From assembly GCA_031291795.1 (NCBI GenBank), contig JARLIJ010000152.1, positions 1 to 55,798 on the forward strand: a DNA stretch of 55,798 nucleotides, written 5' to 3'. The translations under genes and the position numbers were made by a program. A model generated the notes under the pieces. The model did no database searches and was not told the origin of the DNA. It saw nothing but the letters and a program-made list of their open reading frames with translations. The DNA comes from Acetobacteraceae bacterium (GTDB lineage: Bacteria > Pseudomonadota > Alphaproteobacteria > Acetobacterales > Acetobacteraceae). This document shows positions 24,281 to 46,262 of this stretch, piece by piece (within the stretch, counting starts at the first letter, position 1; every line of letters begins with the position of its first letter).

Positions 24281-24477
24281 TTCGGCCATGATCAGGGTTC
24301 AGGTCTCGGGCCCTCTGGTCTAACTCTTCTGGAATCAATGGCTTCGCCGCCAAGCCAGTATCGCGGCCGGATGTGTGGCATCCGCGACCGCGACCAACAT
24401 GGTGCGCGATCGCGTGGCTGGATGATCGAGGTGTCCCTGGATTTTTCAGCGTCTTCTGTTGCTGTACCGTACAGGCT

Positions 24478-25902: not shown

Positions 25903-25986
25903 GCCGCAGCCTGAGCGCTTGCGCTGATCAGGGCGGCTGTTGTTGGGATCGACACAGCCTGCTCTCCCTCAATTTCAGGCATATTC

Positions 25987-27405
25987 ATGTTCGAGACGAT
26001 CTGCCGATTGATCCCACAAGACAGCGACTACCCCGCACGAACACGAACCCTCGACATCCTGACGCGGATTCTCGACGGGCGATTGTACGATGTTCTGCCC
26101 TATGAATTTCATGAGGAGCGCGCGTCCAGCGGCGAGTACATCCCGTTACGCAGCCGGCGTCCGAATGTCCGCTACAATCTCGCGCGAATTGTCGTGGAGG
26201 ACAGCGTCTCTCTGCTTTTCAGCGAAGGGCATTTCCCCAGATTCGATTGTACCGACAAGGTGCTGCAAGGCACGCTTGCCGACATCGTCAAGGAAACCCG
26301 TCTCAATCAGCTGATGACCGACGCCGCGATACGCGGCTCCGTCGGCTCCATTGCCATATTGGTCCGCGTTCTCAGCGGACGTCTCTTCTTTGATGCCATG
26401 CCGACCACTTACCTCACCGCGCTTTGGAATCCTGCCTGTCCAGACGCATTGGCAACCGTCAGGGAAGCCTACAAGGTTGCTGGGACCGTGCTGGCTTCCA
26501 ACGGATATCAAATCGACGACCCGACCGTTACATACTGGTTCGTTCGTCAGTGGGATACCGAATTTGAAACCTGGTATCTTCCGACTCCCACAACGCAGGG
26601 CGTCCCGAATGCGGTCGACCCGGCCAGAACGGTCCGGCACGGTCTGGGATTTGTTCCGATCGTCTGGATCAAGAACCTGCCTGGCGGCTCATCGACCGGC
26701 GACAAAAATGATGGGGGATGCACATTCGGTACGGCAATTGAAAGCCAAATCGAGATTGACTACCAGCTCAGCCAGGCTGGTCGAGGGTTGAAATATAGCA
26801 GTGATCCAACCTTGCTCATCAAGGAACCCGCCTCGTCGGACAGCGAGATTGTCAAAGGCGCAGGAAATGCCCTGATCGTAACGGAAAAGGGCGACGCTCG
26901 CCTCCTCGAAATCGGTGGGTCGGCATCGGCTGCGGTTGTCGATTATGTTCGCACGCTCCGGGAGTTCGCACTCGAAAGCGTTCATGGCAATCGTGCCAAT
27001 CCCGAGCGACTGAGTGCCGCCCAATCGGGGCGCGCCATCGAGTTGCTGAACCAGGGCTTGCTGTGGCTATCAGACAATCTGCGGATCAGTTACGGTGAAA
27101 TCGCTCTTCTTGATCTGGCACGGATGGTGGTGCGCGCATCACAGATCTATCCGTTGCAGGTCTTCGGAAAACCCATTCCTGCCATGGACAGTACTGTTCG
27201 CCTCTCGCTGCAGTGGCCACGGTGGTATGTACCAACCGCCGATGATCGTCAAAAGGATGCACAGACCTTGGCCGCATTGGTCGAGTCCGAGCTAATCAGT
27301 CACGAAACAGCGGTAAAGGCCATCGCCCACAATTACGACATCGGTGATATTGCCGCTGAACTATCGCAGCTTGCTGAAGATCAGAATACCGAGGCTTCAT
27401 TATGA
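25987..27405 (+). CDS. Phage portal protein
   Basis: The 472-residue protein lies between terminase and scaffold, where a portal is expected. It has portal-like features of the SPP1-gp6 type: an N-terminal segment with RPNVRYNLARIVVEDSVSLL, a beta-rich clip region, IDYQLSQAGRGLKYSSDPTL, and a C-terminal helical tail (ADDRQKDAQTLAALVESELI, then SHETAVKAIAH). The portal forms the DNA entry ring at the capsid vertex. The stop overlaps the next gene start (ATGA). Confidence 0.8.
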   Translation: MFETICRLIPQDSDYPARTRTLDILTRILDGRLYDVLPYEFHEERASSGEYIPLRSRRPNVRYNLARIVVEDSVSLLFSEGHFPRFDCTDKVLQGTLADIVKETRLNQLMTDAAIRGSVGSIAILVRVLSGRLFFDAMPTTYLTALWNPACPDALATVREAYKVAGTVLASNGYQIDDPTVTYWFVRQWDTEFETWYLPTPTTQGVPNAVDPARTVRHGLGFVPIVWIKNLPGGSSTGDKNDGGCTFGTAIESQIEIDYQLSQAGRGLKYSSDPTLLIKEPASSDSEIVKGAGNALIVTEKGDARLLEIGGSASAAVVDYVRTLREFALESVHGNRANPERLSAAQSGRAIELLNQGLLWLSDNLRISYGEIALLDLARMVVRASQIYPLQVFGKPIPAMDSTVRLSLQWPRWYVPTADDRQKDAQTLAALVESELISHETAVKAIAHNYDIGDIAAELSQLAEDQNTEASL

Positions 27406-27812
27406 CAGAGAGTACCGTCCCCGAACCCAATCCTGAGATCCAGGAGCTCAAGCGACAGAACGACGATCTGCAGCGCGCCATCGCCGATGTGAAGCAGGAG
27501 ATGATGTCCAGGCTCGTTGTTTCCGAACTGAAAGCGGAGGCGCTGCGAGCAGGCATCGTGGATCTGGACGGCCTCCGGCTGCTCGATATGGACAAGCTGC
27601 GCATCGGGGATGGTGACGCCATCCAAGGGGCCGTCGAGGTGATCGACGGGTTGAAAGCCCGCAAGCCCTGGCTGTTCCAGACGACGTCCTCGTCGTCATC
27701 GGCGATGCCCGCGCCCCCGGCGCATCCGCCATCGCAGAAGCTCGCGACCGAGATGACGGACGCGGAATATCGCGTCGCCCGTGCCCACCTTATCAAGTCT
27801 CATGCCCGCTGA
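27402..27812 (+). CDS. Probable capsid scaffolding protein
   Basis: The 136-residue acidic protein begins with a coiled-coil stretch (NPEIQELKRQNDDLQRAIAD), then a segment with LKAEALRAGIVDLDGLRLLD, the pattern of small phage scaffolds upstream of capsid genes. A proline/serine linker and a basic C-terminal end (RVARAHLIKSHAR) could bind the capsid shell. It overlaps the portal gene by four bases. No head protease is encoded nearby, so the scaffold may leave intact. The assignment rests on position and shape. Confidence 0.65.
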   Translation: MTESTVPEPNPEIQELKRQNDDLQRAIADVKQEMMSRLVVSELKAEALRAGIVDLDGLRLLDMDKLRIGDGDAIQGAVEVIDGLKARKPWLFQTTSSSSSAMPAPPAHPPSQKLATEMTDAEYRVARAHLIKSHAR

Positions 27813-27980
27813 TCCACCCGGCGTTCAGGGCACGATTTTGCTACCAACTGCCCTGTCATTCGCGAGCGCGTTGAGCGGTCCCGGCCGATTCCGGATTCTG
27901 CAGGACTAATCGAGAAGCAGGTTTGCTCTGGATCCCCATAAGCACGCGCACCTGCAATTTTGAGATGAAAAAGGATCGAA

Positions 27981-29303
27981 ATGGCTATTCAAAGCTTCCC
28001 GTTGGCACTGCAGCCGATCATCCAGCAGGGCTTTCTTGAAAGAGAGTTCGACCAGGCACTGCGGTCCCGCTTGGGATATCGGGCGTGCGCGGACCGGGAA
28101 CTGATCTCTGTCGGCATCGGTGAGACGATCACCAAGACGCGGGCTGGACTAAAGCCCTCCGTCACGACGCCTCTTGCGGGCGCGAACAACACCAATCTCG
28201 ACAACGGCCTTACGCCGACGGCATGGAATGTCGAGCAGTATACGCTCGTCATGAACCATTATGCTTCCACGACAGATCTCAACATGGTCACGAGCCGGGT
28301 TGGCATTGCATCGCAATTCCTGCAGAACGCCTCTGTAAATGGCGAACAAGCTGCCCGCAGCCTCGATGAACTGGCGCGCAATGCATTGTTCAATGCCTAC
28401 TTCAGTGGCAACACCCGGGTGCGAACGACGTTGACCAGTGCCGGTCCGGCTGTCGCCGTGGACGACATCCGTGGCTTCCAGACCGTGTTCGTCAATGGCG
28501 TGCAGCAGCCGGTCAGCACGGGCTCTTCCCTGCTCGTGACTGTGGGGTCCAACGCATACAGCGTGACTGGAGCGGCTGCAGATTCAACGAATGTGTCGAC
28601 GACGCCGGCGGGAATTTCCGGCACGCTCACCTTTTCCGGTAATGTGACAGTTTCGGATGGAACCGCAAACAACACTGTCCAGGCGAGCAATGCAGCGGTC
28701 ATTCTTCGTCCGGCACAGCGGGGCAACACGAATCAGCTGGTCGTAAGCGATACGCTGACGATGTCCTGCCTGCTGGATGCTGTCGCGAAGCTTCGCATGA
28801 ATGCGGTCCCGGAAATTGACGGGGTGTACAACTGCTATCTGGACCCCGTGTCGGCCCGGCAACTCTTCTCCGATCCTGATTTCAAGCAACTGTTCCAGGG
28901 TGCCACGTCGGCCAATCAGGTGTTCCGCAAGGGCATGACCAACGACTTCCTCGGTTTGCGTTTTATCTCGACCACCGAGACATTTGTCCAGTCACACCCA
29001 ACATTAAGCAATGTGATGGTGCGTCGGCCAATCGTGTGCGGCCAGGGCGCGCTCGTCGAGGGTGATTTTGCCGGGATGGCCAACAACGACGTCGCGCCAT
29101 CGGATTCAATTGTGTCGGTTGTCAATGGCGTTGCGATGGTAACACGAGAACCCATCGACCGTCTGCAGCAGATCATTGCACAATCCTGGTATTGGATCGG
29201 CGGATTTTGCGCGCCATCCGATACGACGACGAATCCGTCGACAGTCCCGACAGCGACGAACGCAGCCTATAAGCGTGCCGTTATGATCGAGCATATTGGT
29301 TAG
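27981..29303 (+). CDS. Phage major capsid protein (P22-coat-like)
   Basis: The 440-residue protein follows the scaffold gene and has AAGGA before its ATG. The N-terminal region (LEREFDQALRSRLGYRACAD) and the core resemble large HK97-fold coat proteins of the P22 type. The middle segment (about residues 150-230) is rich in Ser, Thr, Val and Gly, and looks like an inserted beta domain of I-domain or Ig type. The C-terminal part has YNCYLDPVSARQLFSDPDFK, seen in related coat proteins. The fold assignment is inferred. Confidence 0.7.
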   Translation: MAIQSFPLALQPIIQQGFLEREFDQALRSRLGYRACADRELISVGIGETITKTRAGLKPSVTTPLAGANNTNLDNGLTPTAWNVEQYTLVMNHYASTTDLNMVTSRVGIASQFLQNASVNGEQAARSLDELARNALFNAYFSGNTRVRTTLTSAGPAVAVDDIRGFQTVFVNGVQQPVSTGSSLLVTVGSNAYSVTGAAADSTNVSTTPAGISGTLTFSGNVTVSDGTANNTVQASNAAVILRPAQRGNTNQLVVSDTLTMSCLLDAVAKLRMNAVPEIDGVYNCYLDPVSARQLFSDPDFKQLFQGATSANQVFRKGMTNDFLGLRFISTTETFVQSHPTLSNVMVRRPIVCGQGALVEGDFAGMANNDVAPSDSIVSVVNGVAMVTREPIDRLQQIIAQSWYWIGGFCAPSDTTTNPSTVPTATNAAYKRAVMIEHIG

Positions 29304-29314
29304 GGAGCGAGAAA

Positions 29315-29623
29315 ATGGCACTAGGCTCCGCCAGTGCATTTCGCCCGACGGGTACAGTCTCAATTACTGCTGGAACGACCTCCAATTCAGTCATATTGAG
29401 CGGTGGGGGCGAGACGATCGTCGTCACCAATACCTCGGCCGCACTGGCATTTGTGCGCTTCGGCGCTGACCCTTCGGTGACCGCGTCAAGCGCAGATATG
29501 CCGGTCCTGCCGAACGCTCGGGTGGTGCTGTCAGTCAATTCCTTTGTTACGTATGGCGCAGTATTACTGGGAAGCGGAACCGGGGTCGTGATGCTCACCC
29601 GAGGTGACGGGGCGTTCGTATAA
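29315..29623 (+). CDS. Small virion protein, possible capsid decoration protein
   Basis: The 102-residue protein is almost all beta-forming residues (SVILSGGGETIVVTNTSAAL, then a C-terminal VVMLTRGDGAF) with no Cys and few charges. It has a strong ribosome site (GGGAG) and sits directly after the capsid gene, the usual place for a decoration or head-fibre protein. I do not recognise a specific family. Confidence 0.45.
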   Translation: MALGSASAFRPTGTVSITAGTTSNSVILSGGGETIVVTNTSAALAFVRFGADPSVTASSADMPVLPNARVVLSVNSFVTYGAVLLGSGTGVVMLTRGDGAFV

Positions 29624-30003
29624 TGGCGCTGACCGACTGCGAAAAGACCGACGTGAGACGCTATTGTGGCTACCGCGTCCTCGGAAGCGCCGAGGTCCAG
29701 TTGCTCCAATGGCCAGTGTATCAGAGCCGCGGAATGCTTGAGTACCGTATGAACAATCTCACAGCGTCGGAAGAGGCGGTCCTTCGCAGACAATTGGGCA
29801 CGCTACTCACGCTCGAATGTGCGGTACCAACGGCAGGCGACAACCTGGACACCGACCAGGCTGCAACCTGGTCCAGAAATCCAAACGAACAGGACGATCG
29901 CTTGAGGCTGCTGGACACATGGCGTCACCGCCTCTGCCAATTTCTGGGTGTGTCGCCGGGTCGTGGTCTGACATGCAGCAACAGCATCTCCATTATCGTT
30001 TAA
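29623..30003 (+). CDS. Possible head completion / head-tail connector protein
   Basis: The 126-residue protein starts within the stop codon of the previous gene. It begins MALTDCEKTDVRRYCGYRVL and is mainly helical, with a C-terminal segment that has RLRLLDTWRHRLCQFLGV. Small helical proteins at this place usually form the ring under the portal. The function is inferred from position. Confidence 0.5.
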   Translation: MALTDCEKTDVRRYCGYRVLGSAEVQLLQWPVYQSRGMLEYRMNNLTASEEAVLRRQLGTLLTLECAVPTAGDNLDTDQAATWSRNPNEQDDRLRLLDTWRHRLCQFLGVSPGRGLTCSNSISIIV

Positions 30004-30648
30004 ATGAGAGCGGATCGAATCCTGGATGTCGTGCGATGGGGCAACAATGTGGCTGCCCGCGCCATCGGAGAGATGGCAATCGCATATCGGCCGCGGAGTG
30101 CGTACACTCCATTGGTGCCCGAGCACAGGTATCTCCGTCTGCCGGTGGCCTTTGCGCCGATTCGTGGCCGGTTTGAACATCCGACACTGTATGGTGACGC
30201 TCTCAGGATCGGGATCTACGATGCGTTGTATACCCGCCCAGGCGACTACCTGGTTCTGGAGACGGGCATCTGGTTCATAGCGTCGCAGGATCGATTCCTG
30301 CCCAGCCTATGCGTGGAAACCAACCGCACGATCTCGATCGCGCGCCCGGGTCAGCCTTTGACTGTCGGAGCGAACGCCTATGCGGGCATCACTACCGGAA
30401 CAACCGTGGGGGTGACCGGTGATTGGCCGGCGAGCGTCCTTGGAATATCGGGTTCGGGTATCAATCCAGCAGGCTTGCCGACAGATCTATCCGTGCCCTA
30501 CTGGACGGTCCTGCTGCCTCCGATCCCGACTGTTACGTTGCAGGTATCTGATCTGGTTTCCGACGACCTGGGCCGTAGCGGCGTCGTTGCGGCAGCCGAG
30601 CTAACCCGCCTCGGATGGCGCTTAACGGTCAAAGAAGCGACGGCCTGA
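30004..30648 (+). CDS. Phage head-tail joining region protein, family not recognised
   Basis: The 214-residue protein starts directly after the previous stop. It includes RYLRLPVAFAPIRGRFEHPT and YLVLETGIWFIASQDRFLPS, a pattern seen in connector or stopper proteins that check the filled head, but I cannot name the family. The second half is Gly- and Thr-rich (ITTGTTVGVTGDWPASVLG), which is unusual for a simple stopper. Confidence 0.45.
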   Translation: MRADRILDVVRWGNNVAARAIGEMAIAYRPRSAYTPLVPEHRYLRLPVAFAPIRGRFEHPTLYGDALRIGIYDALYTRPGDYLVLETGIWFIASQDRFLPSLCVETNRTISIARPGQPLTVGANAYAGITTGTTVGVTGDWPASVLGISGSGINPAGLPTDLSVPYWTVLLPPIPTVTLQVSDLVSDDLGRSGVVAAAELTRLGWRLTVKEATA

Positions 30649-30693
30649 TTGCCGCGGATCGTGGCCGCTCGTTGGCAGACGCGTTGAAGCGCG

Positions 30694-31512
30694 ATGGGAA
30701 TCATGGCCGATTACGCAGATATTGAAAACTCTCTCGTGACATTCATCGCAGATGCCTTGTATCCCGACGGAATAAATGCACCGAGCATAGTCGGTACTAC
30801 ATGCAGGATATTTCGTGGTTGGCCGTTGCCAGCGGCCCTAAATTCGGATCTGTCTGCGGGCGTTGTCAACGTGAGTGTATTTCCTTGGAAAGGTTCCGGC
30901 CGTGTCCTGCCGCCTCTTCCGATAGTCTATCGCGTCAATGTCGCGTTACCCGCACTATCTGCTGTCGTTTCGGATGAAACCGTAACGTTTACCGGAATGC
31001 CGGCGGTCGGTCAGTGTGCTGGCCTCCTGATCGACGGAACATCCTACGTCTATCGGCCCCAGGCAGGAGATTCTTCTGCCTTGGTCGCCGCGGCGTTCGC
31101 TGTGCTGGTCAACTCCGATCGGATCGCGCTATTGTCAGGGACTACGCTGACCCTACCGGGCGCCTCGAGGGTTATCGGACGTGTTGTCGCTGATACCGTC
31201 TCCCTCACAGAGGTGAGGCGCCAGGAGCGCGAAACCAGCATAACGTGCTGGTGCGCGACGCCGGACATACGAGACACCGTCGCGGAAGCCATCGACGTGG
31301 CATTGGCACGAGTGACTTTCCTGCCATTGGTTGAAGGGAGCAGCGTTCGGGTTCGCTATTGCGATAGCGTCCAACATGATCAATCACAGAATGCGCTGCT
31401 GTATCGACGGGACCTCATTTATACGGTCGAGTACCCCACAGTCGTGCGGCAAACCGAGCCGGCAATGCTGTTCGGCGATCTAAAAATGGGTGCAGTGCAG
31501 ACGATCGTTTGA
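30694..31512 (+). CDS. Phage tail terminator/connector-like protein with an insertion
   Basis: The 272-residue protein begins MADYADIENSLVTFIADALY after a possible upstream Met. It has a central inserted part (FTGMPAVGQCAGLLIDGTSY) that looks beta-rich, and a late EAIDVALARVTFLPLVEGSS. Its place, just before the sheath gene, fits a tail terminator or tail completion protein. Typical terminators are about half this length, so the insertion is a point of interest. The start may be 30694 or 30703. Confidence 0.45.
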   Translation: MGIMADYADIENSLVTFIADALYPDGINAPSIVGTTCRIFRGWPLPAALNSDLSAGVVNVSVFPWKGSGRVLPPLPIVYRVNVALPALSAVVSDETVTFTGMPAVGQCAGLLIDGTSYVYRPQAGDSSALVAAAFAVLVNSDRIALLSGTTLTLPGASRVIGRVVADTVSLTEVRRQERETSITCWCATPDIRDTVAEAIDVALARVTFLPLVEGSSVRVRYCDSVQHDQSQNALLYRRDLIYTVEYPTVVRQTEPAMLFGDLKMGAVQTIV

Positions 31513-31743
31513 CCACCCATTTCATGATATTTGTCCGTATACGTAAGTAACGAAGGCCAGGTGATGCAAATGGATGCGTGTGTGAGAGCTTCCTCGGCAA
31601 TCATTGCTGCTGTCGAAACATGCGCTGCATAGTTGGGGCGACGATTTACAGCGACCGGAAGGTAAGGAACGCGCACATCGCACCGGTACGCGCTGCTGAT
31701 GCCCACGGACGACAAGGTAGTTTATAACCGGAGTGCTACTTGA

Positions 31744-33312
31744 ATGCCTATTGTGCAGCAGGGCGCAATCAATACGACAGCCATCCTCGTTCCAGATCTA
31801 TATGTCCAAATTGTCCCTCCCCAGAATCTCATCCTCAATGGGGTGCCGACGAACGTTATCGGTGTTGTTGGCACTTCCTCCTGGGGGCCGGTTAATCAAC
31901 CGGTTCTGGTTGGTACGATGGCGGATTACGTCACGAGCCTTGGACCGGTCATTGCCCGCAAATTCGACATGGGTACGCAGGTCGCTACGGCTGTTCAGCA
32001 AGGCGCCCAAAGCTTCCGATGCGTGCGAGTGACAGATGGGACCGACACGTCGGCGCAGGCCGCAGTGTCTGGCACCACCGTAACATTGACGGCGCTGTAC
32101 ACTGGCTCGCTTGGCAATTCGATCGGAGCCATTCTCCAGGCTGGATCCCGGCTGGGGACCTGGCGGCTGACAGTCACCCAGCCTGGACTTCAACCCGAGG
32201 TCTTTGACAACATTGGAGGCACTGCTGGTAGCTTCTGGGCGGCTCTTGCGGCCGCCGTAAACGACGGACAGGGCGGTCAGCGCGGGCGTTCTCAGCTCAT
32301 TGTGGTAAACCCTGGTGGCGCGACGGCGACGCCTGCCCCGTTCTCTCTGACGCTGGGATCGTCCGTACCGGGGACGGACGGCGCCGTCTCCGTTACTGCT
32401 GCGAGGTTGATCGGAGTTGACGGCCCCTCGAGGCTCGGGATGTACGCGCTGCGCGGGCAGGGGTGCAGCATCGGGATGCTCGCGGATTCTGATGACTGGA
32501 TGTGCTGGACCGATCAAGCCGAATTCGGACTTGATGAAGGCATCTATATGATTGTAACCGGCCCTTCCGGACAGGCAATCCAGGACGGTATCAATCAGAA
32601 GAATCAGGCGGCCATTGACAATTATGCAGTGAAGCTTCTGTTTGGCGATTGGCTATGGTGGTCTGACCAGGTAAACAACGTGATAAGGCTCGTGTCGCCA
32701 CAGGGCTTCGCGGCCGGGCGCCTGGCCAACCTCTCTCCCGAGCAGTCCGGACTGAACAAGCCGATCTACGGAATTATTGGCAGCGAGCGGACCGGGGATC
32801 CGGGTTCCGGTCAGGCGGCCACGTATTCCTATGCCGATCTGGGAGCGCTATTGGGCGCCGGTCTGGACGTCATTTGCCGTCCGCAACCGGGAGGTACCTT
32901 CTGGGGGCTTCGAGGGGGGCACAACACATCCTCGGTTGCTGGTACGAATGGAGACAACTACACACGTCTGACAAACTACATTGCTGCCACGCTATCGGCT
33001 GGCATGGGGGGATATGTCGGGCAGGTGGTGAACACGGGCCTGTTCCGGAATATTCGTGCCACTCTGCTGTCATTCCTTCAGAATATGCTGAACCAAGGGC
33101 TGCTGGGTACGACAACGACGGATGGGGGGCTGCCATTTAGCGTGATCTGCGACTGGACGAACAATCCGCAGACACGGGTGGCATTGGGTTATGTTCAGGC
33201 CGATGTCCAAATTCAATATCAGTCGATCAATGAAAAATTCATAGTCAATCTCGAAGGCGGGCAATCGGTGCAGGTGAGTACGCAGCTCTTGCCGACGAAT
33301 GGTGTTTCCTAG
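31744..33312 (+). CDS. Phage contractile tail sheath protein
   Basis: The 522-residue protein is the sheath of a contractile tail. It has the family layout: an N-terminal segment (ILNGVPTNVIGVVGTSSWGP), a variable middle, and a conserved C-terminal domain with LRGGHNTSS and VSTQLLPTNGVS. It also carries FGDWLWWSDQVNNVIRLVSP and the arm that links sheath subunits. A 231-bp gap of no clear content precedes it, possibly with a promoter. This gene fixes the particle as myovirus-like. Confidence 0.88.
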   Translation: MPIVQQGAINTTAILVPDLYVQIVPPQNLILNGVPTNVIGVVGTSSWGPVNQPVLVGTMADYVTSLGPVIARKFDMGTQVATAVQQGAQSFRCVRVTDGTDTSAQAAVSGTTVTLTALYTGSLGNSIGAILQAGSRLGTWRLTVTQPGLQPEVFDNIGGTAGSFWAALAAAVNDGQGGQRGRSQLIVVNPGGATATPAPFSLTLGSSVPGTDGAVSVTAARLIGVDGPSRLGMYALRGQGCSIGMLADSDDWMCWTDQAEFGLDEGIYMIVTGPSGQAIQDGINQKNQAAIDNYAVKLLFGDWLWWSDQVNNVIRLVSPQGFAAGRLANLSPEQSGLNKPIYGIIGSERTGDPGSGQAATYSYADLGALLGAGLDVICRPQPGGTFWGLRGGHNTSSVAGTNGDNYTRLTNYIAATLSAGMGGYVGQVVNTGLFRNIRATLLSFLQNMLNQGLLGTTTTDGGLPFSVICDWTNNPQTRVALGYVQADVQIQYQSINEKFIVNLEGGQSVQVSTQLLPTNGVS

Positions 33313-33323
33313 GGAGAGTCTCA

Positions 33324-33752
33324 TTGTCAGTCAGTACATTTTCAATCGGTCGGGATACGCAACTCGTCGTTGTTGGTCCGCAAGGGCGCCTTGATCTGAG
33401 CTTCGTCTCAGGCTTCGAGTCGCATCAGCTTACTCAGTCGGTGCGAGTCAGCAGGCTTGATGGAACGCAAATGGGCACCGAACTCCCGAAAGGCTGGGAG
33501 GGTAGCTTTGAGCTCGAGCGCGGAAGTTCTGCGGTTGAGGATTTCATCGCTGCCGCCGAGCAGAGCTTCTACACCGGGGCGTTGAATGCAAACTCGACTA
33601 TGTATCAATATATAGCTGAGCCAGATGGGTCTACATCTACATACCAGTACGACAGCGTCATGTTTAAGCTCGCTAGTGCGGGGCATTGGAAGGGGGACAG
33701 CAGCGTGAAGCAAAAGCTCGAGTTCTTTGCAACACGTAGGCGGAGAATCTGA
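33324..33752 (+). CDS. Phage tail tube protein
   Basis: The 142-residue protein follows the sheath directly, as tube genes do. It is beta-rich, with RDTQLVVVGPQGRLDLSFVS, LPKGWEGSFELERGSSAVED and a late DSVMFKLASAGHWKGDSSVK, the pattern of small myoviral tube proteins. The start is a TTG at 33324 with GGGAG 8 bases before it. No ATG would keep the first strands. The stop overlaps the chaperone ATG (TGATGG region). Confidence 0.8.
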   Translation: MSVSTFSIGRDTQLVVVGPQGRLDLSFVSGFESHQLTQSVRVSRLDGTQMGTELPKGWEGSFELERGSSAVEDFIAAAEQSFYTGALNANSTMYQYIAEPDGSTSTYQYDSVMFKLASAGHWKGDSSVKQKLEFFATRRRRI

Positions 33753-34105
33753 TGGGGGCCGCGTTTGACCCGCAGGCACAGGGCAGTCCCGAGACCGTAA
33801 CAGACGGTCGAGGCCGTATTCTCGCTATCCGTCGGCTTTCTGTTCTTGATCGCCTTCGGTTGTTCAAGGCGGCAGGACCGGTGCTGGCCGAGAATCATCC
33901 GTGGTTCGGAATGGCAGTTCTCGCGACGTCGGTTGCTGCAATCGATGGTGTGCCCGTGCCGATGCCTGCCAACGAGTTGCAGATCGAAGCCGCTGTCTCT
34001 CGTCTTGGCGAGGAGGGGCTGTCTGCGGTGGCCATGACCCTTGATCAAGAGGATGGTGAATCCACGGAGACAAGCGCGGGAAACTTGCACGGCACCCTGA
34101 CCTGA
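33752..34105 (+). CDS. Tail assembly chaperone, short (unshifted) form
   Basis: The 117-residue protein lies between tail tube and tape-measure positions, the place of the lambda gpG-like chaperone. It contains a helical core (RRLSVLDRLRLFKAAGPVLA) and an acidic tail with DQEDGESTETSAGN. The last residues overlap a canonical -1 slippery sequence in phase (GGA AAC, codons at 34079 and 34082). When the ribosome does not slip, it stops at TGA 34103-34105. Confidence 0.85.
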   Translation: MGAAFDPQAQGSPETVTDGRGRILAIRRLSVLDRLRLFKAAGPVLAENHPWFGMAVLATSVAAIDGVPVPMPANELQIEAAVSRLGEEGLSAVAMTLDQEDGESTETSAGNLHGTLT

Positions 34106-34140
34106 TCGATTGCCTGTACCTGGTCAGGAACGGGGTGCCG
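34078..34140 (+). promoter_or_regulatory. Programmed -1 ribosomal frameshift signal
   Basis: GGGAAAC at 34078-34084 is read as G GGA AAC in the chaperone frame, the canonical X XXY YYZ phase. After a 5-base spacer (34085-34089), CGGCACCC (34090-34097) pairs with GGGTGCCG (34133-34140), and TGACC (34098-34102) pairs with GGTCA (34122-34126). This makes a 13-bp stem with a 6-base bulge on the 3' side. Confidence 0.85.
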
Positions 34141-34269
34141 TACGACATAGCGTTTACGCTTCCGACTGATGAGCGGATTGCTCATGTGATCATAATGGGC
34201 ACTTTGTCCGGCCACGTGTTCGATTGGCACACGATGCGATGGGTCGACCCCATTAGGGCCGGCCTCTGA
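34084..34269 (+). CDS. Frameshift-made C-terminal extension of the tail assembly chaperone (gpGT-like)
   Basis: In the -1 frame, the reading open from 34060 continues after the slip as LARHPDLIDCLYLVRNG, then VPYDIAFTLPTDERIAHVII, and ends with HTMRWVDPIRAGL at TGA 34267-34269. It has no start codon or ribosome site of its own, so it can only be made as a fusion: 111 codons from 33752, then 61 more, a protein of about 172 residues. Phage GT-type proteins use this extension to bind tube and tape measure during assembly. The preserved frame argues for function. Confidence 0.8.
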   Translation, partial: LARHPDLIDCLYLVRNGVPYDIAFTLPTDERIAHVIIMGTLSGHVFDWHTMRWVDPIRAGL

Positions 34270-34326
34270 ACCGACGTGCGACAAACGTGGATGCTGTAAA
34301 GATCTTCCATCGTGATAGGAAGCCCG

Positions 34327-35316
34327 ATGAGTCCTCCAGGAGATCGGGAGACGCCGCCCGCACGCCTGCTAGCAAGAGCCGGACGCATCGCGCTGCGTCC
34401 TTGGCAGCCGCAGATCACGGGTTTTGCGGCGACAGCCTGGGCTCCTTTCGTGGTGCTCAGTCGTATGGGGGGGCGGAACAGCCCCCTTGATGTGTCCCGA
34501 TTTGGGGCGCCATACGCGGCATCGAGGCGCGTTGACCTGACCTCTATTCTGCCGGCTCGCGCGGGAGGCTTTCGGGCGTCCCGATCGCGCAATGAACCGA
34601 TATCATCCTACGAGCTGGGGATGCGCCGATCCCGGACTGTTGGGAGGCGGGGAAGCATTGAGGAAGCAAAGGTTGAAAGTTATGCAACACGCCACGCTTG
34701 TGCGACCGTACCCCAGCCAACTGGCCTGGATGCCCCCTCCCACTCCCGCCGTAGCACCGGCACAAGACCGTGGTCCGAGGCAGAGAGCCGTTCCCACCAT
34801 GAGCGCACTGCCGGAGCATCGCCGATTTCCTCTCATCGTTCCGTCTTTTTGGGAGGAAACGCTTCCGCAAGCGTGCAGCGCTGGCTAACATCGACCAGCA
34901 CTGCCCGACGGTCCGCTCTGGCGGTTGTAAGAGCAATGAAAATCAGCCGAACTGCTCGTGTTTTGAGTTCGGCTCATGGGGGCATTGTCGCGGACCAGAG
35001 AACTCAGTGGGCACCTACTCAGGCTACTCCCAGCGTCACAGTGCATCAGGCGTCTCCGGATGCGCTGCCGGTAGGCATGCGGCAAAGCGTCCAACTGTCA
35101 ACGGCGGCGGACGGCGAGCACGGATCCGCAGGTTCGTACAACAGTGAGCAGGGAAGCCGGGCAATTCCCGGTGAGTTGATCCTCGACGGTGCAGAGCTTG
35201 GCTCCTGGGTGGTCCGTCATCTTTCGGATAGCCTGGCGGCAGCCCCAATAGGCACCACCGGGCCCGACGGTCGGATAGCGCCGCCGACATTGGGGACGGC
35301 ACTATATCCCTCGTGA
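34327..35316 (+). CDS. ORF at the tape-measure position, shortened or decayed
   Basis: A tape-measure gene is expected right after the chaperone. The only plus-strand frame here gives 329 residues from an ATG at 34327 (AGGAAG upstream). Its last 45 or so residues, with GELILDGAELGSWVVRHLSD then a Gly-Pro-rich end, look like the C-terminal tip of alphaproteobacterial tail proteins. The middle (RRSRTVGRRGSIEEAK and similar) is rich in Arg, Ser and His, and looks like an out-of-frame or decayed reading. I see no long coiled coil or hydrophobic stretch like a normal tape measure (usually over 500 residues). It may be a remnant. Confidence 0.4.
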   Translation: MSPPGDRETPPARLLARAGRIALRPWQPQITGFAATAWAPFVVLSRMGGRNSPLDVSRFGAPYAASRRVDLTSILPARAGGFRASRSRNEPISSYELGMRRSRTVGRRGSIEEAKVESYATRHACATVPQPTGLDAPSHSRRSTGTRPWSEAESRSHHERTAGASPISSHRSVFLGGNASASVQRWLTSTSTARRSALAVVRAMKISRTARVLSSAHGGIVADQRTQWAPTQATPSVTVHQASPDALPVGMRQSVQLSTAADGEHGSAGSYNSEQGSRAIPGELILDGAELGSWVVRHLSDSLAAAPIGTTGPDGRIAPPTLGTALYPS

Positions 35317-35379
35317 GGAGGGCGCCGGCGCCAGTTCTGGCCAAGGGGGGGTGATGATCCTCTGAAGAAATGCAGGATA

Positions 35380-35536
35380 GATAGTCGTCCGTGAACTGCT
35401 GCTTGATGAACGTCCAGCCGATGTTCCGGACCGGCTCCACCAGCGGGTGGTTGAGGTCGACGATCTGATCGAGGCGTGATCGCGCCGCCCGCTGTTGCCT
35501 CGCTTGGGTGGTCGTATCCCACCCCTCCCAGGTCAC
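35380..35536 (-). pseudogene. Decayed IS5-type transposase N-terminal piece
   Basis: Between 35,317 and 35,720 there is no phage gene. The minus-strand reading has RSRLDQIVDLNHPLVEPVRN, then IGWTFIKQQFTD and HHPPLARTG, which resembles the N-terminal (DUF772) region of IS5-type transposases. It has no catalytic domain and no clear inverted repeats at its ends. It is a remnant, recognised by eye only. Confidence 0.5.
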
Positions 35537-35720
35537 CTGGGGGCGCTTATCATACCCGTCCGTGTCGGAGCAAGTTGCGGGGGTATCTGTGACCGATAGC
35601 GATTACATAACGAATGAAGTCATTGCCAAGCCATACATGTCCGAGACTCATAACGAGTTCTGAATTCTTCATGGACGACCAGACACGCGTATCCAGATCG
35701 GGCCAAGCGGTGACAGCGGG

Positions 35721-36443
35721 ATGATACTAGGATCTATCCGATTCCGTGACTTTGAGGTCCCCTCGCGTATCAGCTTTGGTGGGCGTCAAAGCATGAGCAC
35801 GCACAGGCTTAGCGGTGGTCAGAGAGTGGTTGATGTGATGGGCCCCGAAAGCGCAAGCATCGCATTCACTGGGGCATTCTCGGGCATCGATGCGGTGCAA
35901 CGGGCAAAGAGAGTCGATTTTCTCCGAATAGCGGGAACTGTCGTGCCCCTTTCATGGGACAGCCTCTATTTCAATGTCATAGTTGCCAAATTCCAGGCTG
36001 CCTATCAAAATCGGATCTGGATACCCTTTCAAGTAACCTGCACGGTGGTAAGGGACGATGCGACGGATTCTAGATCTGCCGTCGTTGCCCAGGACGATGG
36101 ATTGGCCGCTTCGATGCTTGCGACCGCAGCGGCACTTCTAATGACCGTACCGGCCACAAGCCAATATATCGTGAACCTCGGCCTGCCGGATGATGGGCTT
36201 GCGAACCAGACGGCCGCCGCTACCAACGCGAGCAACCTCGCGCTGGCACAAGACAGTGTCGGTCGGAGTCTCGCGGCGTCAGAAGCACAGTTTCTACAGG
36301 CCGCGTCCTTCCAGGATCAGCCTCCGGCAACTGCCATGTCGGCGTTGGGGACCGCTGAGTCCGCTGGACAAAATATGAGTGCGCTCGTGTTGGCACGTTC
36401 ATATCTCTCGGTCGCGGGACTTTCATCAGGGACTGCCTCCTAA
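35721..36443 (+). CDS. Phage baseplate/DNA circularisation N-like protein
   Basis: The 240-residue protein begins MILGSIRFRDFEVPSRISFG and has GGQRVVDVMGPESASIAF and a core that resembles the N-terminal domain of the Mu-type circularisation/baseplate protein, which sits after the tape measure in many myoviruses. The C-terminal part is a low-complexity Ala/Ser-rich helix region. It ends at TAA overlapping the next ATG. Confidence 0.6.
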   Translation: MILGSIRFRDFEVPSRISFGGRQSMSTHRLSGGQRVVDVMGPESASIAFTGAFSGIDAVQRAKRVDFLRIAGTVVPLSWDSLYFNVIVAKFQAAYQNRIWIPFQVTCTVVRDDATDSRSAVVAQDDGLAASMLATAAALLMTVPATSQYIVNLGLPDDGLANQTAAATNASNLALAQDSVGRSLAASEAQFLQAASFQDQPPATAMSALGTAESAGQNMSALVLARSYLSVAGLSSGTAS

Positions 36444-36628
36444 TGCGTAGCATTACCGTGACCCGGGGCAATCTGTTTCAGATTGCAGCCCAATACCTGG
36501 GAGATGCGACGATGTGGATTTATCTCGCACAACTGAACCAGATCAAGGATCCATCCATACAGGCCGTAACGGTTCTCACGCTGCCCGCAGCCTCCAATCT
36601 TCAGGGAGGGGGCATTGTCATCCAATGA
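36443..36628 (+). CDS. LysM-like small tail protein (gpX-like)
   Basis: The 61-residue protein starts MRSITVTRGNLFQIAAQYLG and has DATMWIYLAQLNQIKDPSIQ, then VLTLPA, the single LysM-type fold of small baseplate hub proteins such as P2 gpX. It overlaps the genes on both sides, so it is translated in a tight block with the baseplate genes. Confidence 0.7.
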   Translation: MRSITVTRGNLFQIAAQYLGDATMWIYLAQLNQIKDPSIQAVTVLTLPAASNLQGGGIVIQ

Positions 36629-37703
36629 CCACGCTTCCTTGGTCCGCTATCCCCGATTACAGGTGCTGGCGGACGGGGAACCTCTGAACGGTGCTTTTGA
36701 GGCACGTGTAGTGTCAAACAACTACTATATGCCGGACCGATTTTCGCTTCGTCTGTTAAGGGGTTCTCTAACAAACGGCCTTCCTGACTATCTACAGTTG
36801 CCGGAGGCGACCGCGTTCTCCATCTCTGCCGGTGTCGACTCTGGGGCAAGCTTCACATGCCTGATAGTCGGACGGGGTGACTCCCTCTCATGCGATTACG
36901 TTTCTCGGGGCATTCGCATTGATGGTCGCGATCTTTCCGCTGTACTGCAGGATACGCCTACTAATGATGTATTCTCCAACAGGACGTCCAGCGAGATTGC
37001 GACCATCCTCGCCGAGCGTCATGGACTGATCCCTGTGGTAATGCCGACGGCAACTCTTGCGGGGCGATACTACCACGGCGACACCAACCAGGGGGCGCAT
37101 AATCAATTCAGCCGCACGTCGACGGAATGGGATCTGCTCGTGTTCCTGGCCCGATGCGAATGCTTTGACATATTTGTCGTTGGGAGCGCTCTTTATTTTC
37201 AGCCGATTGCCCAAGGATTAGGTGTGTCCACAGTACTGCGGCCTTCGGACCTGATCACCCTCAAACTCCGACGGAGGCTCCGCCTGTCCGGGGACATCGC
37301 GGTTACAGTCAGGAGCTGGAGCTCAAAGCAGAGCATCGCAATAACCCAGACGGTCGTGTCGCAGAGGCTGGGCTACGCCTCTGTTGCTGGCTCGCTTGGC
37401 GCCTCGCCCACTCAGCATTACTACCTGGTCCAACCCAATCTGTCGGCAAGCGACGCGGAAAGGATTGCACAGAATCGGGTGGAAGAGCTCGCTCGTCACG
37501 AGCAATGTATCGATTTTACGATGCCGGGCGAACAAACGCTTACGGCCCGAAGTCGCTTCTTCCTTCAGGGGACGGACTCGGACTTTGATCAAATCTATCA
37601 GGTAGATTCGATTGAAAGAACGATCAGCTCATCTTCGGGCTTCGTTCAGCGCGTTTCGGCACACAGCATCTCGACCCGGCAGACCATTCTGTCGCCTTTT
37701 TGA
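36615..37703 (+). CDS. Phage late control protein D-like baseplate hub protein
   Basis: The 362-residue protein resembles gpD/gp27-type hub proteins: an N-terminal beta domain (YPRLQVLADGEPLNGAFEAR), a TLAGRYYHGDTNQGAHNQFS region and WDLLVFLARCECFDIFVVGS, typical of this family. Near the C-terminus is a barrel with LTARSRFFLQGTDSDFDQIY. The start is a TTG at 36615 with GGAGGGGG just before it, inside the end of the LysM gene. It forms the trimeric hub under the tube. Confidence 0.75.
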   Translation: MSSNDHASLVRYPRLQVLADGEPLNGAFEARVVSNNYYMPDRFSLRLLRGSLTNGLPDYLQLPEATAFSISAGVDSGASFTCLIVGRGDSLSCDYVSRGIRIDGRDLSAVLQDTPTNDVFSNRTSSEIATILAERHGLIPVVMPTATLAGRYYHGDTNQGAHNQFSRTSTEWDLLVFLARCECFDIFVVGSALYFQPIAQGLGVSTVLRPSDLITLKLRRRLRLSGDIAVTVRSWSSKQSIAITQTVVSQRLGYASVAGSLGASPTQHYYLVQPNLSASDAERIAQNRVEELARHEQCIDFTMPGEQTLTARSRFFLQGTDSDFDQIYQVDSIERTISSSSGFVQRVSAHSISTRQTILSPF

Positions 37704-37714
37704 GTGTGACGGTA

Positions 37715-38230
37715 ATGGAACATATTATAAACGCAGTAAAGGGATACGCAGCCAGCCTGGATCAGTTGCAAGCTATGCCCCGCCTTGCGATTGTGTCGTC
37801 TGTGGATTCGCAAACTGCCTGTGCCCGGGTGCTTCATCAGCCAGAGGGGGTTTTGAGCGGATGGCTGCCTGTCCTTGCCCTTTGGGCTGGTAATGGTTGG
37901 GGATTGGTCTGCCTTCCTGCTCCGGGTGATCAGGTACTGGTTCTGTCCCACGACGGCGACCCAGCTAGCGGCATAATTCTCGGTGGGTTGTATTCTGATG
38001 CGAGGCGTGTCCCATCCGCCCCCATTGGTGAGTTTTGGTTGGTTCATAGCAGCGGCAGCTCTCTGAAGATGGTCAACGACGGCACGGTGCAGATATCCGG
38101 TGACCTTCACGTGAGTGGAGATGTCTACGATAAATCGGGATCGCTCTCGCGCTTGCGGCAAGCGCACAACGCACATGTACACACTGATGCGGTGGGGCGC
38201 GCCACGTCTGCTCCGACTACTCGGGATTAG
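37715..38230 (+). CDS. Baseplate assembly protein V-like spike protein
   Basis: The 171-residue protein has an OB-like N-terminal domain (LAIVSSVDSQTACARVLHQP, then GWLPVLALWAGNGWGLVCLP and GDQVLVLSHDGDPASGIILG). A beta stretch (DGTVQISGDLHVSGDVYDKS) and a C-terminal HAHVH-like metal-binding end (AHNAHVHTDAVG) follow, as in the membrane-piercing spike of P2 gpV. A TTG at 37700 is an alternative start. Confidence 0.75.
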   Translation: MEHIINAVKGYAASLDQLQAMPRLAIVSSVDSQTACARVLHQPEGVLSGWLPVLALWAGNGWGLVCLPAPGDQVLVLSHDGDPASGIILGGLYSDARRVPSAPIGEFWLVHSSGSSLKMVNDGTVQISGDLHVSGDVYDKSGSLSRLRQAHNAHVHTDAVGRATSAPTTRD

Positions 38231-38238
38231 AAAGTTCA

Positions 38239-38625
38239 ATGGGAGACGCCTGGCATGAGTGGGGCACGGACCTGTCGACGGGCCCAAAAGGGGATCTGGC
38301 GGTCGCTGATGACCAGACTCTGGGGCAGCAGCGCATTCTACGGCGCCTGTTGACCAATCCAGGTGATTACATCTGGCATCTCGATTATGGTGGAGGCCTC
38401 GGCGCGTTCGTGGGGCAACCTGCGGCGGCAAGCCAGATCGCTTCTGTGGTTCGGGCCCAGATGTTCCTGGAGTCGTCGGTCGCACGCGACCCAGAGCCTG
38501 AGGTCGTGGTTGACACGTCGGGTTTTGCGGGGAGCGGCTCCATATTCGTCAAAATTCAATATACAGATGCGGAGCAGGGAGATACGCAAGTTCTGCAGTT
38601 CTCTCTCCCAGGTAACTCGACATGA
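38239..38625 (+). CDS. Baseplate wedge protein gpW/gp25-like
   Basis: The 128-residue protein has a gp25-type core: LAVADDQTLGQQRILRRLLT, then NPGDYIWHLDYGGGLGAFVG, and a beta C-terminal half. gp25-like proteins connect the wedges with the sheath. The stop overlaps the baseplate J start (ATGA). Confidence 0.75.
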   Translation: MGDAWHEWGTDLSTGPKGDLAVADDQTLGQQRILRRLLTNPGDYIWHLDYGGGLGAFVGQPAAASQIASVVRAQMFLESSVARDPEPEVVVDTSGFAGSGSIFVKIQYTDAEQGDTQVLQFSLPGNST

Positions 38626-39749
38626 AGTTGAATCTTCAAACGTTCTCTACGATCGTCGCAAATTCAGCTGCTGCGGTTCAGGCTGGAACGGCTCAGTTAC
38701 TTGACCTCAGTACCGGATCTCTTCTGCGCGCTATTCTAGAAGCCAACGCTTCGATCACTCTCTGGCTGCAATGGCTAGTCATTTGCGTCATGAGGATTAT
38801 GCGGGCTTCTACTTCGGCGGGAAGTGATCTTGACAGCTGGATGGGCGATTTTGGCTTTACCAGGCTGCCGTCTTCTTGTGCCTTCGGGGTGGTAACATTC
38901 TCCCGCTACAATGTTTCTAACAATGCCACGATTGCTCCGGATGCATTAGTTAGGACGGCTGACGGAACCCAGACATTCTCTGTGTCGACCGATGCAGCGA
39001 ATGTCGCATGGAATACCGCTTTGGGGGCATATGTGCTGGCCAGCGGAGTGACTTCGATCGATCTACCGGTCGTTGCCACGGTGGCAGGGGTGGCTGGCAA
39101 TGTTCAAGCTGGTGCCATTACCACTATTGCATCACCGATTGCTGGCGTTGATATGGTGGCGAATGCCCTCGGAGCGACCAACGGCCGCGATGCTGAGCAG
39201 GATGCTGCGTTCCGGTCCCGGTTCGTCCTGTTCATCAACAGTCGATCTCAGGCAACCCGGATTGCGGTTGAATACGCTATCTCGTGCGTGCAGCAGGGGT
39301 TATCCTATTCAATACAGGAAAATCTAGACGGGAGCGGAAACTCCAGGAATGGGAGCTTCCTGGTTACGGTAGATGACGGGTCCGGTTGTCCCTCTGCCAC
39401 ATTGTTGAGCGCAGTCAATTCGGCGATTGATGTCGTGCGGCCGATAGGATCGGTATTCACGATCCAGCCGCCTACAGTTCAGCTTGTTGCCGTATCTGCG
39501 AATGTCACGCTCACGGCGAATGCCAACCAATCGGCCGTCCTGGCAGCCATTGAGACACAGATAACAAACTTCGTAAACAATCTGCCCGTTGGAGTCGGCC
39601 TTCCGATCACACGCGTTGCGCAACTGGCCTATGACGCTGATCCAAGCGTCATAAACGTACGCAATCTTGTATTGAACGGAAATTCCCTCGATATCGCAGT
39701 AAGCGTTGTTGGTATAATAAAGCTTTCTAATCTATCGGTGACGCTATGA
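38622..39749 (+). CDS. Baseplate J-like protein
   Basis: The 375-residue protein is a J-type wedge protein. It starts with NLQTFSTIVANSAAAVQAGT, has GSDLDSWMGDFGFTRLPSSC and the conserved GRDAEQDAAFRSRFVLFINS, and ends with a beta C-terminal segment. The order W-J-I is that of P2-like baseplates. It overlaps the genes on both sides by four bases. Confidence 0.85.
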   Translation: MKLNLQTFSTIVANSAAAVQAGTAQLLDLSTGSLLRAILEANASITLWLQWLVICVMRIMRASTSAGSDLDSWMGDFGFTRLPSSCAFGVVTFSRYNVSNNATIAPDALVRTADGTQTFSVSTDAANVAWNTALGAYVLASGVTSIDLPVVATVAGVAGNVQAGAITTIASPIAGVDMVANALGATNGRDAEQDAAFRSRFVLFINSRSQATRIAVEYAISCVQQGLSYSIQENLDGSGNSRNGSFLVTVDDGSGCPSATLLSAVNSAIDVVRPIGSVFTIQPPTVQLVAVSANVTLTANANQSAVLAAIETQITNFVNNLPVGVGLPITRVAQLAYDADPSVINVRNLVLNGNSLDIAVSVVGIIKLSNLSVTL

Positions 39750-40420
39750 CAGGTGATCAGGCCGATATCATTGGACGCATCAAGAGCACCTTGCCAGTCG
39801 GTTGGTTTCCCGACGACAGCCCGATGCTCGACAGCCTTTTAGGCGGTGTCGCACAGGCCTGGTCCTGGATCTATGACTGGATTAGTTATGTCGGGCAGCA
39901 AACTCGTATCACGACTGCCGCAGGTGTATGGCTGGATCTTGCGGCGGTCGACTACTTTGGCGCCGATCTTCCACGCAGACCGCACGAGACAGACGAGCAT
40001 TTCAGTAAGCGGATACATCGCAATCTCCTGCGGAAGCGCGGAACGCGATGCGACGTCATATCGGCTCTGACAGATCTGACCGGGCGATCCCCTGATGTGT
40101 TCGAGCCGGCACGGTGCTCTGACACCGGGGCATATGGCATTGACCCAGCGTCCTCTGGCGGTCTCTCCTATAACGCCGTCGGGGGTTGGGGAAGCCTTGC
40201 CCTGCCGTTTCAGTGCTTCATCACAGCGTATCGTCCAGTTCCCAGCGGAATCGCATTCGTATCGGGTTGGTGTTGTTATGCGGGAGGATACGGTGGTGGT
40301 GTAATCCAGTACGTGGATCTGGCACTTATGGAGGATCAAATCTCAGATATGGAAATCTATGGGGCCATTTCGTTAACTCTCCCGGTTGCCACTATCGGAT
40401 GGACAAGAATAGCAAGCTAG
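39746..40420 (+). CDS. Phage tail protein I-like wedge protein
   Basis: The 224-residue protein follows J with an ATGA overlap. It has LPVGWFPDDSPMLDSLLGGV and a helical core with LDLAAVDYFGADLPRRPHET, where DYFG and the following HFSKRIHRNLLRKRGTRCDV are typical of short wedge proteins of this position. It ends in Gly/Tyr-rich beta segments. Confidence 0.7.
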   Translation: MTGDQADIIGRIKSTLPVGWFPDDSPMLDSLLGGVAQAWSWIYDWISYVGQQTRITTAAGVWLDLAAVDYFGADLPRRPHETDEHFSKRIHRNLLRKRGTRCDVISALTDLTGRSPDVFEPARCSDTGAYGIDPASSGGLSYNAVGGWGSLALPFQCFITAYRPVPSGIAFVSGWCCYAGGYGGGVIQYVDLALMEDQISDMEIYGAISLTLPVATIGWTRIAS

Positions 40421-40514
40421 AAGACGCCGTAATATAAAGTCAACACCTGCGGCGATCAAGAAACCCACGTGGTAGAGGCGCGCACTGCACGGCACGGCAG
40501 CCGAAGCGCAGGGA

Positions 40515-40754
40515 TCAAAGCCCTATCGGCTGTTGCCATGCCGGTCTATCGCCGGAATGAGGAGGGCGGCCCCGGTAAGCCAGGAGGACCAATACGCCGG
40601 TCGTTGCCGATCGCTTACCGTGCGCCCCGGCCGAGGCGTGGACCTTCCTCGCCAGTTCATCACGCGATGACTTGGTCGCTCGGCCCCAGCAGTTGGTCCG
40701 AGGGCTCATTTGGCCATCGTTGCCGGAGCGTCCCGGCGAGTGTGACGATAGCAT
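40515..40754 (-). pseudogene. Possible decayed IS5-type transposase piece in a 546-bp gap
   Basis: The gap 40,421-40,966 has no intact gene. Its minus strand includes GRATKSSRDELARKVHASAG, then AHGKRSA, which resembles the G.SRGGLTTKIHA..D..G.P stretch of IS5-family DDE transposases with several changes. Nothing else in the gap is recognisable. It may be an insertion scar between the baseplate and fibre genes. Confidence 0.35.
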
Positions 40755-40966
40755 TTTGTATACTCGCGGTCGAACACCAGATTTCCCGGGTAGTCATACC
40801 GATAGACCCGCTACGTGCCGAAGGAACGTTCATGATACGCACAGACTTGCTATCGCGACAGGCACAGCGGTACTTCCGGATTTGGCCAGCACGCGAAGCG
40901 AGGATTCAAGCACGTTTGGTCTCCTCCATTTGATGATACGCTCCAGAATATTGAAAAGTCGAGCAC

Positions 40967-42220: not shown

Positions 42221-42397
42221 TTCTTTCGCAGTCGCACACGAATCCTACCGAGCAAGGTCGGCTCAAGCGACTGGCATGGACGTAATTGTCTATGGTGGTG
42301 GCCCGATGACCCGGCATCCTCATAGTCTATGACGCAGATAGGACGCGGGTTCGTCGAGTGCGAGAAGGCAGTACGTAGAATAGACCCGGAGATGATT

Positions 42398-42880
42398 ATG
42401 GCGACGCCAGCCTCACATGTTCTGAAGCCAAGTTGGGCCAGAGTGGTAACGATAGACTCCTTCATTGCTGTGCCTCGCGGCTCCGAGGCAATTGCACCGC
42501 CGCCACTAAACTGGCCCGCCAAGGATCCCTGCGATATACTGGATTATGTTATCGAATTTTCACCGGCAGTCCTGGGAAATGATGGTGATAGCCTTGCGAC
42601 CCTTGATGTGACGGTGACGCCGGACGCACCTGGCGATCTCTCCATGACGAACTCTGGCGCTGATGGGACGCGGGCGGTCCTGTGGTTCAGCGGCGGTCAG
42701 GCTGGCACTGTGTATGTCGTTACGATATCCATTAATACGACCAATGGAAGAACGATACAACGCAGTATAATTCTACCAGTAATTCTACTTTCGGCGCCCG
42801 CAACACCGGCAATGGCGATCCAGACGGCTGCAGGCCTGACTATTACCGACCAAAATGGCAATCCAGTCTTGTCTTCATAG
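42398..42880 (+). CDS. Phage fibre-tail adaptor-like protein
   Basis: The 160-residue protein has a central segment with WPAKDPCDILDYVIEFSPAV and then AVLWFSGGQAGTVYVVTISI, the pattern of the small adaptor proteins that link fibres to the baseplate. The last residues are TITDQNGNPVLSS. The ATG at 42398 has GGAG six bases before it. Upstream frame starts at 42329 have no ribosome site. Confidence 0.6.
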   Translation: MATPASHVLKPSWARVVTIDSFIAVPRGSEAIAPPPLNWPAKDPCDILDYVIEFSPAVLGNDGDSLATLDVTVTPDAPGDLSMTNSGADGTRAVLWFSGGQAGTVYVVTISINTTNGRTIQRSIILPVILLSAPATPAMAIQTAAGLTITDQNGNPVLSS

Positions 42881-42975
42881 CAGGGCGGGCCTCACGCTGA
42901 TATTTCGCTCCGAGGTGTTGCGTCCGACACGATCCTGCAACCAGACTGCCTTGAAGCCGAGAGTTTCCATCACAA

Positions 42976-46047: not shown

Positions 46048-46262
46048 TGCTATTGCATTCCATGGCAGGCAACTCGACCACGTGGCCCAACTCAGCTGAG
46101 TCCGGCTGGAGGCGCGCAGGGGGGAGTCGTGTCGGCCCCGCCGGCAAGCCTTTCCGACGACGGTCGTGCGGCGGTAGCGAAATGCGCTGCCTCTTAGGCT
46201 GATTGCCGGATTCTCCTTCGTCAAACCCACGTCTCGATGCACGATGTCGGTCAAGAGGTGCG

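Follow-up and report, generated by a model that had tools for sequence, protein, structure and literature searches.

The question raised by this locus is whether a short gene, lying among the tail genes of a phage-like structural cluster in Acetobacteraceae DNA, is extended by a programmed -1 ribosomal frameshift into a reading frame that lacks a start of its own, as the first-pass annotation had proposed from the letters of the window (the whole 55,798-nucleotide stretch analyzed here), and whether the signal has been preserved in its homologues. As far as the comparison of sequences can tell, the signal is real and preserved, and it belongs to a type familiar from phages: a -1 slip on G GGA AAC, aided by a hairpin, would almost certainly add a 172-aa fusion to the 117-aa protein, with lambda-like roles for the two. 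The features referred to throughout are the following:

24373..48125, + strand: structural cluster (terminase, portal, scaffold, major head protein, sheath, tube, chaperone, baseplate, fibres), in the same order in relatives
31744..33312, + strand: tail sheath protein (PHROG 23, E 3.2e-44)
33324..33752, + strand: probable tail tube protein (phrog_12993, unknown function, E 3.4e-40), so named for its position between sheath and chaperone
33752..34105, + strand: zero-frame ORF, putative tail assembly chaperone (gpG-like), 117 aa (phrog_20383, unknown function, E 5.7e-21)
34078..34084, + strand: slippery heptamer G GGA AAC, in phase with the ORF start at 33752
34078..34269, + strand: -1 frame extension (T-like domain), without a start of its own
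34089..34141, + strand: hairpin predicted to stimulate slippage (lower stem of 11 bp, internal loop of 1x2, upper stem of 8 bp, loop of 12 nt), from folding with a shuffle control
34103..34105, + strand: zero-frame stop TGA, 18 nt past the heptamer and within the hairpin
34312..35316, + strand: candidate tape-measure protein, 334 aa, from its position and a tblastn match (25%, residues 20 to 331, E 3e-12) at the same place in the relative L033

The reading frames are laid out as a -1 programmed ribosomal frameshift would have them, an X XXY YYZ heptamer being found in the correct phase: relative to the ORF start at 33752, GGGAAAC at 34078-34084 reads exactly as G GGA AAC, just as had been claimed. 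The -1 frame comprises 63 codons from 34078 to the TGA at 34267-34269, 61 of which follow GGG AAA, and its nearest stop upstream lies 21 nt before the heptamer with no ATG, GTG or TTG in between, which bears out the earlier description of a frame open for 61 codons and devoid of a start. The fusion size of about 172 residues given there agrees with simple arithmetic from the coordinates (111 + 61 = 172 residues for the predicted slip product). The heptamer by itself, however, is no rarer than chance would have it (4 occurrences of GGGAAAC on both strands of the window vs 5.85 expected), so the evidence has to be sought in its phase, the hairpin that follows and the conservation of the whole arrangement.

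A structure does lie a few nucleotides downstream of the heptamer, as at other frameshift sites, its stimulatory effect per se being a prediction. The downstream RNA folds with a minimum free energy of -36.3 kcal/mol (z -4.63; none of 200 shuffles was as good) into a lower stem of 11 bp (34089-34099 with 34131-34141) and an upper stem of 8 bp (34101-34108 with 34121-34128), with a weak 3-bp base beside the heptamer in addition to these two main stems. Of the earlier description, a 13-bp stem after a 5-base spacer, the strong hairpin at a distance of 4-5 nt was confirmed (the spacer between the heptamer and the main stem is 4 nt, or 5 if the A-U closing pair is not counted), but not the single stem of 13 bp, which is replaced by the stems of 11 bp and 8 bp. 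As a control that leaves the encoded protein intact, the 18 codons after the start of the extension (K-L-S/A) were replaced synonymously 300 times per locus at 110 loci, and the homologous hairpins proved better than the mean of such codon shuffles in all 110 (mean z -3.63, below -2 in 95% of the loci and above 0 in none). Under the structure of the window, 77% of the aligned cells pair vs 38-51% when the structure is slid along the alignment; changes on both sides of a pair (96 cells) do not rise above all of the slid controls (45-112), and covariation is thus not used as support here, its weakness being attributable to the lower stem (GGCACCC/GGGUGCC), which is nearly fixed.

An alignment of homologues had been suggested as a check, and it came out in favour of the frameshift. 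A search of 200 genomes of the bacterial family to which the window belongs recovered the extension in 82 of them, at 90 places, the window's own included. All of these family places (30 + 60 loci) entered the junction set, along with 22 of 24 viral contigs and the Komagataeibacter phage phiKX1, which gave 113 junctions, or 110 distinct ones after the removal of 3 duplicates; the viral loci L048 and L054 were left out, as their extension was unmatched, their stretches ending at, or a few bases past, the chaperone match. An in-phase XXXYYYZ heptamer is found in 109 of the 110 distinct junctions (GGGAAAC in 62, AAAAAAC in 44, AAAAAAA, GGGAAAT and AAAAAAT in 1 each, none in 1), and in just as many the extension lies in the -1 frame relative to the chaperone profile match. 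The sole exception, L091, has neither the heptamer nor the -1 offset (its frame offset is another one); an ATG in frame with its extension is seen 39 nt upstream (L091:759-761), as if a separate gene had replaced the frameshift there. Coding alone does not explain the heptamer, given that these genes use AAA for 28% of their Lys residues and GGG for 30% of their Gly residues. The GGG and AAA forms of the heptamer require at least 6 changes on the tree, 24 of whose 107 inner branches are well supported.

Further homologues outside the junction set were provided by an order-wide search (6 new loci of the 20 listed) and a class-wide one (L159 and L161), and the heptamer is kept in 7 of 7; it is absent from L159, an eighth and marginal match from another family. 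The order-wide search placed the extension family in 120 of 299 genomes, all 120 of them in the family of the window, and the class-wide search in 3 of 385, namely 2 genomes of the same family (one being the window's genome) and the marginal L159. At the protein level, the conserved extension with low dN/dS that had been anticipated was recovered: between the window and its near relative L034, the -1 frame shows pN 0.10 and pS 0.69 (0.11 and 0.75, respectively, vs L033), and the extension alignment of 39 members contains both invariant and nearly invariant residues, which shows the -1 frame to be under protein-level selection. A second, diverged copy of the extension (L087; G000:C205, 13695-13856), 46% identical, resides elsewhere in the window's own genome, where the heptamer is AAAAAAC and the zero-frame stop follows 37 nt from the heptamer start.

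These data also bear on other readings of the locus. The inverted repeat is GC-rich and stands near the end of an ORF, and it might be read as a transcription terminator of the intrinsic type, or an attenuator, set between tail genes, next to which the heptamer would be incidental; the stem, however, is followed by no U-tract, and the hairpin falls within coding sequence conserved in the -1 frame and keeps an almost fixed distance to the heptamer, and we regard a terminator or attenuator as extremely improbable. Expression of the extension as a separate gene, from its own start or by translational coupling and with the frameshift left unused, is very unlikely: 89 of the 110 loci, that of the window among them, have no ATG, GTG or TTG between the last upstream stop of the -1 frame and the heptamer, and the heptamer is kept in 109 of 110, although L091 (heptamer and -1 offset absent, in-frame ATG 39 nt upstream) does seem to be such a case and phiKX1 has been annotated with two hypothetical genes. 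The window comes from an incomplete genome assembly (68.8% complete), which might invite the suspicion that an error of sequencing, or mutation of a gene in decay, lies behind the frame change, but an offset of -1 that is common to 109 of the 110 distinct junctions, including the one in phage phiKX1, and is accompanied by both heptamer and hairpin already contradicts it, and the probability of such an artefact is virtually nil.

That the gene is a tail assembly chaperone, as the first-pass annotation had named it, and one of the gpG/gpGT type, is supported, without being proven, by the gene order and, weakly, by the predicted fold. The order is that of sheath, probable tube, chaperone and tape-measure candidate, followed by baseplate genes, so the gene stands between tail tube and tape measure, the sheath being identified by PHROG and the other two by position and weak similarity. 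No family match was obtained for the tape-measure candidate, whose 334 aa would make for a short tail if this is the whole protein (in phiKX1, a 742-aa CDS, L116:11059-13287, is found a little downstream of the chaperone). An AlphaFold model of the first 111 zero-frame residues (pLDDT 89.4) has the HK97 tail assembly chaperone 2ob9 as its best solved match (prob 0.84, TM 0.45, E 0.1, the E value not being significant); some of its matches among viral models are named tail assembly chaperones (best E 0.015), the sole match below 0.001 being an unnamed phage protein. No fold match with an E below 0.001 was found for the extension. Searching solved structures by sequence gave no match with an E below 0.3. 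Among 39 members, the zero-frame half matched no Pfam family and the extension no Pfam or PHROG family; neither half thus matches a named chaperone family in these libraries, and it is the placement and the predicted working of the gene that are chaperone-like.

Under the proposed mechanism, the majority of ribosomes would stay in the zero frame and produce the 117-aa gpG-like protein, while a minority would slip by -1 at G GGA AAC, aided by the hairpin 4-5 nt downstream, and produce the 172-aa fusion carrying the T-like domain. In the lambda model, as presented in a review (PMC5009743), the short form binds the tape measure and the long form also recruits tube subunits; by analogy with gpG and gpGT, coating of the tape-measure protein here would fall to many short copies and recruitment of the tail-tube subunits to a few long ones, the slip rate thereby setting the ratio of the two. 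We infer the occurrence of the slip, its rate and the binding partners from this analogy and the sequence; as for actual rates, frameshifting of 6-7% has been reported in two HK97-like tail chaperone genes (PMC3711429).

A feature shared by most of the family, and missing from the window, is a stop codon adjoining the heptamer. Of the 109 junctions that have a heptamer, 95 have the stop immediately behind it (TGA in 85, TAA in 7, TAG in 3), whereas the window copy has the sense codon UUG there and its stop 18 nt downstream; 11 of the other 14 junctions have, like the window, a TGA at +25 from the first base of the heptamer. Where the -1 frame encodes Leu-Ser at the junction, a stop is present in 87 of 91 cases; codon usage would predict 18.6%, and Leu-Ser pairs elsewhere in these genes give a stop in 20 of 160. 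Among the further homologues, the stop adjoins in 5 of 7, in two of them by means of TAG. With L091 counted as “stop”, 9 changes between stop and sense are needed on the tree and only 4 are forced by well supported branches, which makes for few independent events. For comparison, the mean distance from heptamer to stop in the phage training set of PRFect is 26 nt (PMC10885494).

It may be asked whether the frameshift in this family competes with termination, so that the mostly UGA stop in the A site would make the ratio of long to short protein follow RF2, a layer that the window copy would lack. The adjoining stop in 95 of 109 junctions and the Leu-Ser excess (87 of 91 vs 18.6% expected) speak for it, as does a bacterial system in which the HIV slippery sequence was used and in which, according to an account of that group's earlier work (PMC4373837), raised RF2 abolished slippage at an intercodon stop; the same work, however, had the stop lowering -1 slippage, the sequences compared here are related and the independent events few, the UGA arises in part from the Leu-Ser codons CTG AGC themselves, and an adjoining stop also simply gives the short protein a neat end. 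Such competition is a possibility to be taken seriously, with the balance inclining somewhat against it, and a release-factor-sensitive ratio is a fair hypothesis for the chaperone family and not for the window copy. The bolder version, in which the heptamer has been set against the stop so that the ratio of short to long protein reports host RF2 activity and the lineage of the window has secondarily lost the stop, strikes us as rather unlikely; if true, bacteria would have a natural counterpart to the sites with an intercodon stop in Rous sarcoma and barley yellow dwarf viruses. Those eukaryotic viruses are unrelated, and their natural -1 sites have the stop directly after the heptamer (PMC4373837), like 95 of the 109 here and unlike the window copy itself.

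The choice of heptamer deserves a comment as well, given that 106 of the 110 end in A AAC and not in the A AAG of lambda. Both G_GGA_AAC and A_AAA_AAC occur in the same genes of haloarchaeal viruses, as the review cited above reports (PMC5009743), which also states that in E. coli slippage at A_AAA_AAC is much weaker than at A_AAA_AAG, a point that counts against the proposed slip, and traces the marked shift-proneness of A_AAA_AAG there to weak pairing of AAG with the only tRNA-Lys of that species. A genome of the same genus (G156) has a tRNA-Lys with the anticodon CUU beside the one with UUU (30 of 46 tRNA matches sampled), so AAG would probably be read too tightly to slip there, and we infer that the tRNA-Lys content explains the use of A AAC; in the window's own genome, no tRNA-Lys was seen among the 30 of 36 tRNA matches sampled.

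Set beside the known systems, the window resembles lambda G/GT in having a short and a long product (PMC5009743), and differs from it in the heptamer (GGGAAAG in lambda, ending in A AAG and standing 15 nt before the zero-frame stop, vs mostly A AAC in the window family), in the contractile tail and in the lack of any Pfam family or PHROG of known function. With P2 E/E+E' it shares the contractile tail, the succession of sheath, tube, -1 frameshifted chaperone and putative tail length determinator, and even the stop 18 nt after the heptamer, but the slippery site there is TTTTTTG. Mu gp41 has the same order of sheath, tube, frameshifted chaperone and tape measure, although a -2 frameshift is given in its record, and HK97 gp13/gp14 is likewise a -1 frameshifted tail chaperone, to which the best solved fold match of the window belongs (2ob9, at an E of only 0.1); the scan used found no in-phase XXXYYYZ near the gp13 stop. 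A homologue is present in the Komagataeibacter phage phiKX1 (LC644975), which has both halves at a -1 offset, AAAAAAC followed by TGA and a hairpin with z -4.3, its zero-frame part being about 35% identical to that of the window. The two halves (L116:9989-10530; BCZ76063.1 and BCZ76064.1) are annotated as separate hypothetical proteins, while the sequence across their junction, AAAAAACTGA, points to a single frameshifted gene; neither “frameshift” nor “chaperone” turns up in a word search of the text of the phiKX1 paper (PMC8566455), in which a prediction program is also said to have called phiKX1 incomplete. Titles, abstract openings and passages of the open-licence literature yielded no description of a frameshift in this chaperone family, which is not proof of its absence from print.

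A large tail-chaperone family, unnamed in Pfam and PHROGs, would thereby join the known cases of frameshifting, and a temperate phage of acetic acid bacteria would have as its chaperone what is annotated as two hypothetical genes. The 109 natural sites might, moreover, serve as a series for testing A AAC heptamers, lysine tRNA content and the adjoining stop against bacterial frameshift rates.

As to the nature of the cluster, every gene in it that a family names is a virion gene, and host genes flank it closely (gltX on one side and algH/der/bamB on the other); it may represent a particle cluster that is defective or has been co-opted. The premise of a decaying prophage, on which the earlier argument for selection had been built, found no support: there was no broken structural gene and no internal stop in the translated window genes, but as these were chosen as open frames, damage could be missed. 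Relatives show the same gene order, though the most distant of them retain less of it, and among chosen flanking frames in four relatives host-type genes are nearby and differ from one relative to the next, which argues against one fixed site; frames of no assigned identity adjoin the cluster in several. No integrase (PF00589) stood within 40 kb of the chaperone among the stronger matches listed for 15 such genomes. A comparison aimed at domestication and vertical inheritance of the gene-transfer-agent kind, i.e., host BamB vs element identity in 18 genomes, was ambiguous, with Spearman coefficients of 0.38 for the head protein and 0.42 for the sheath vs 0.62 between these two element genes. 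Phage-like contigs from peat moss have been reported to align to Acetobacteraceae genomes and to have metabolic genes on their flanks (PMC12142844). In two relatives (L137:11788-13863 and L142:11768-13852), the fn3 protein at the right end of the cluster is followed by an open frame of about 690 aa for which Pfam gave no match; in the window, the first gene beyond this point to match a family is a host gene. The genome G153 has two identically scoring Mutator-family transposase genes (L146:1308-2576 and 4715-5983) close to where the element ends on the right.
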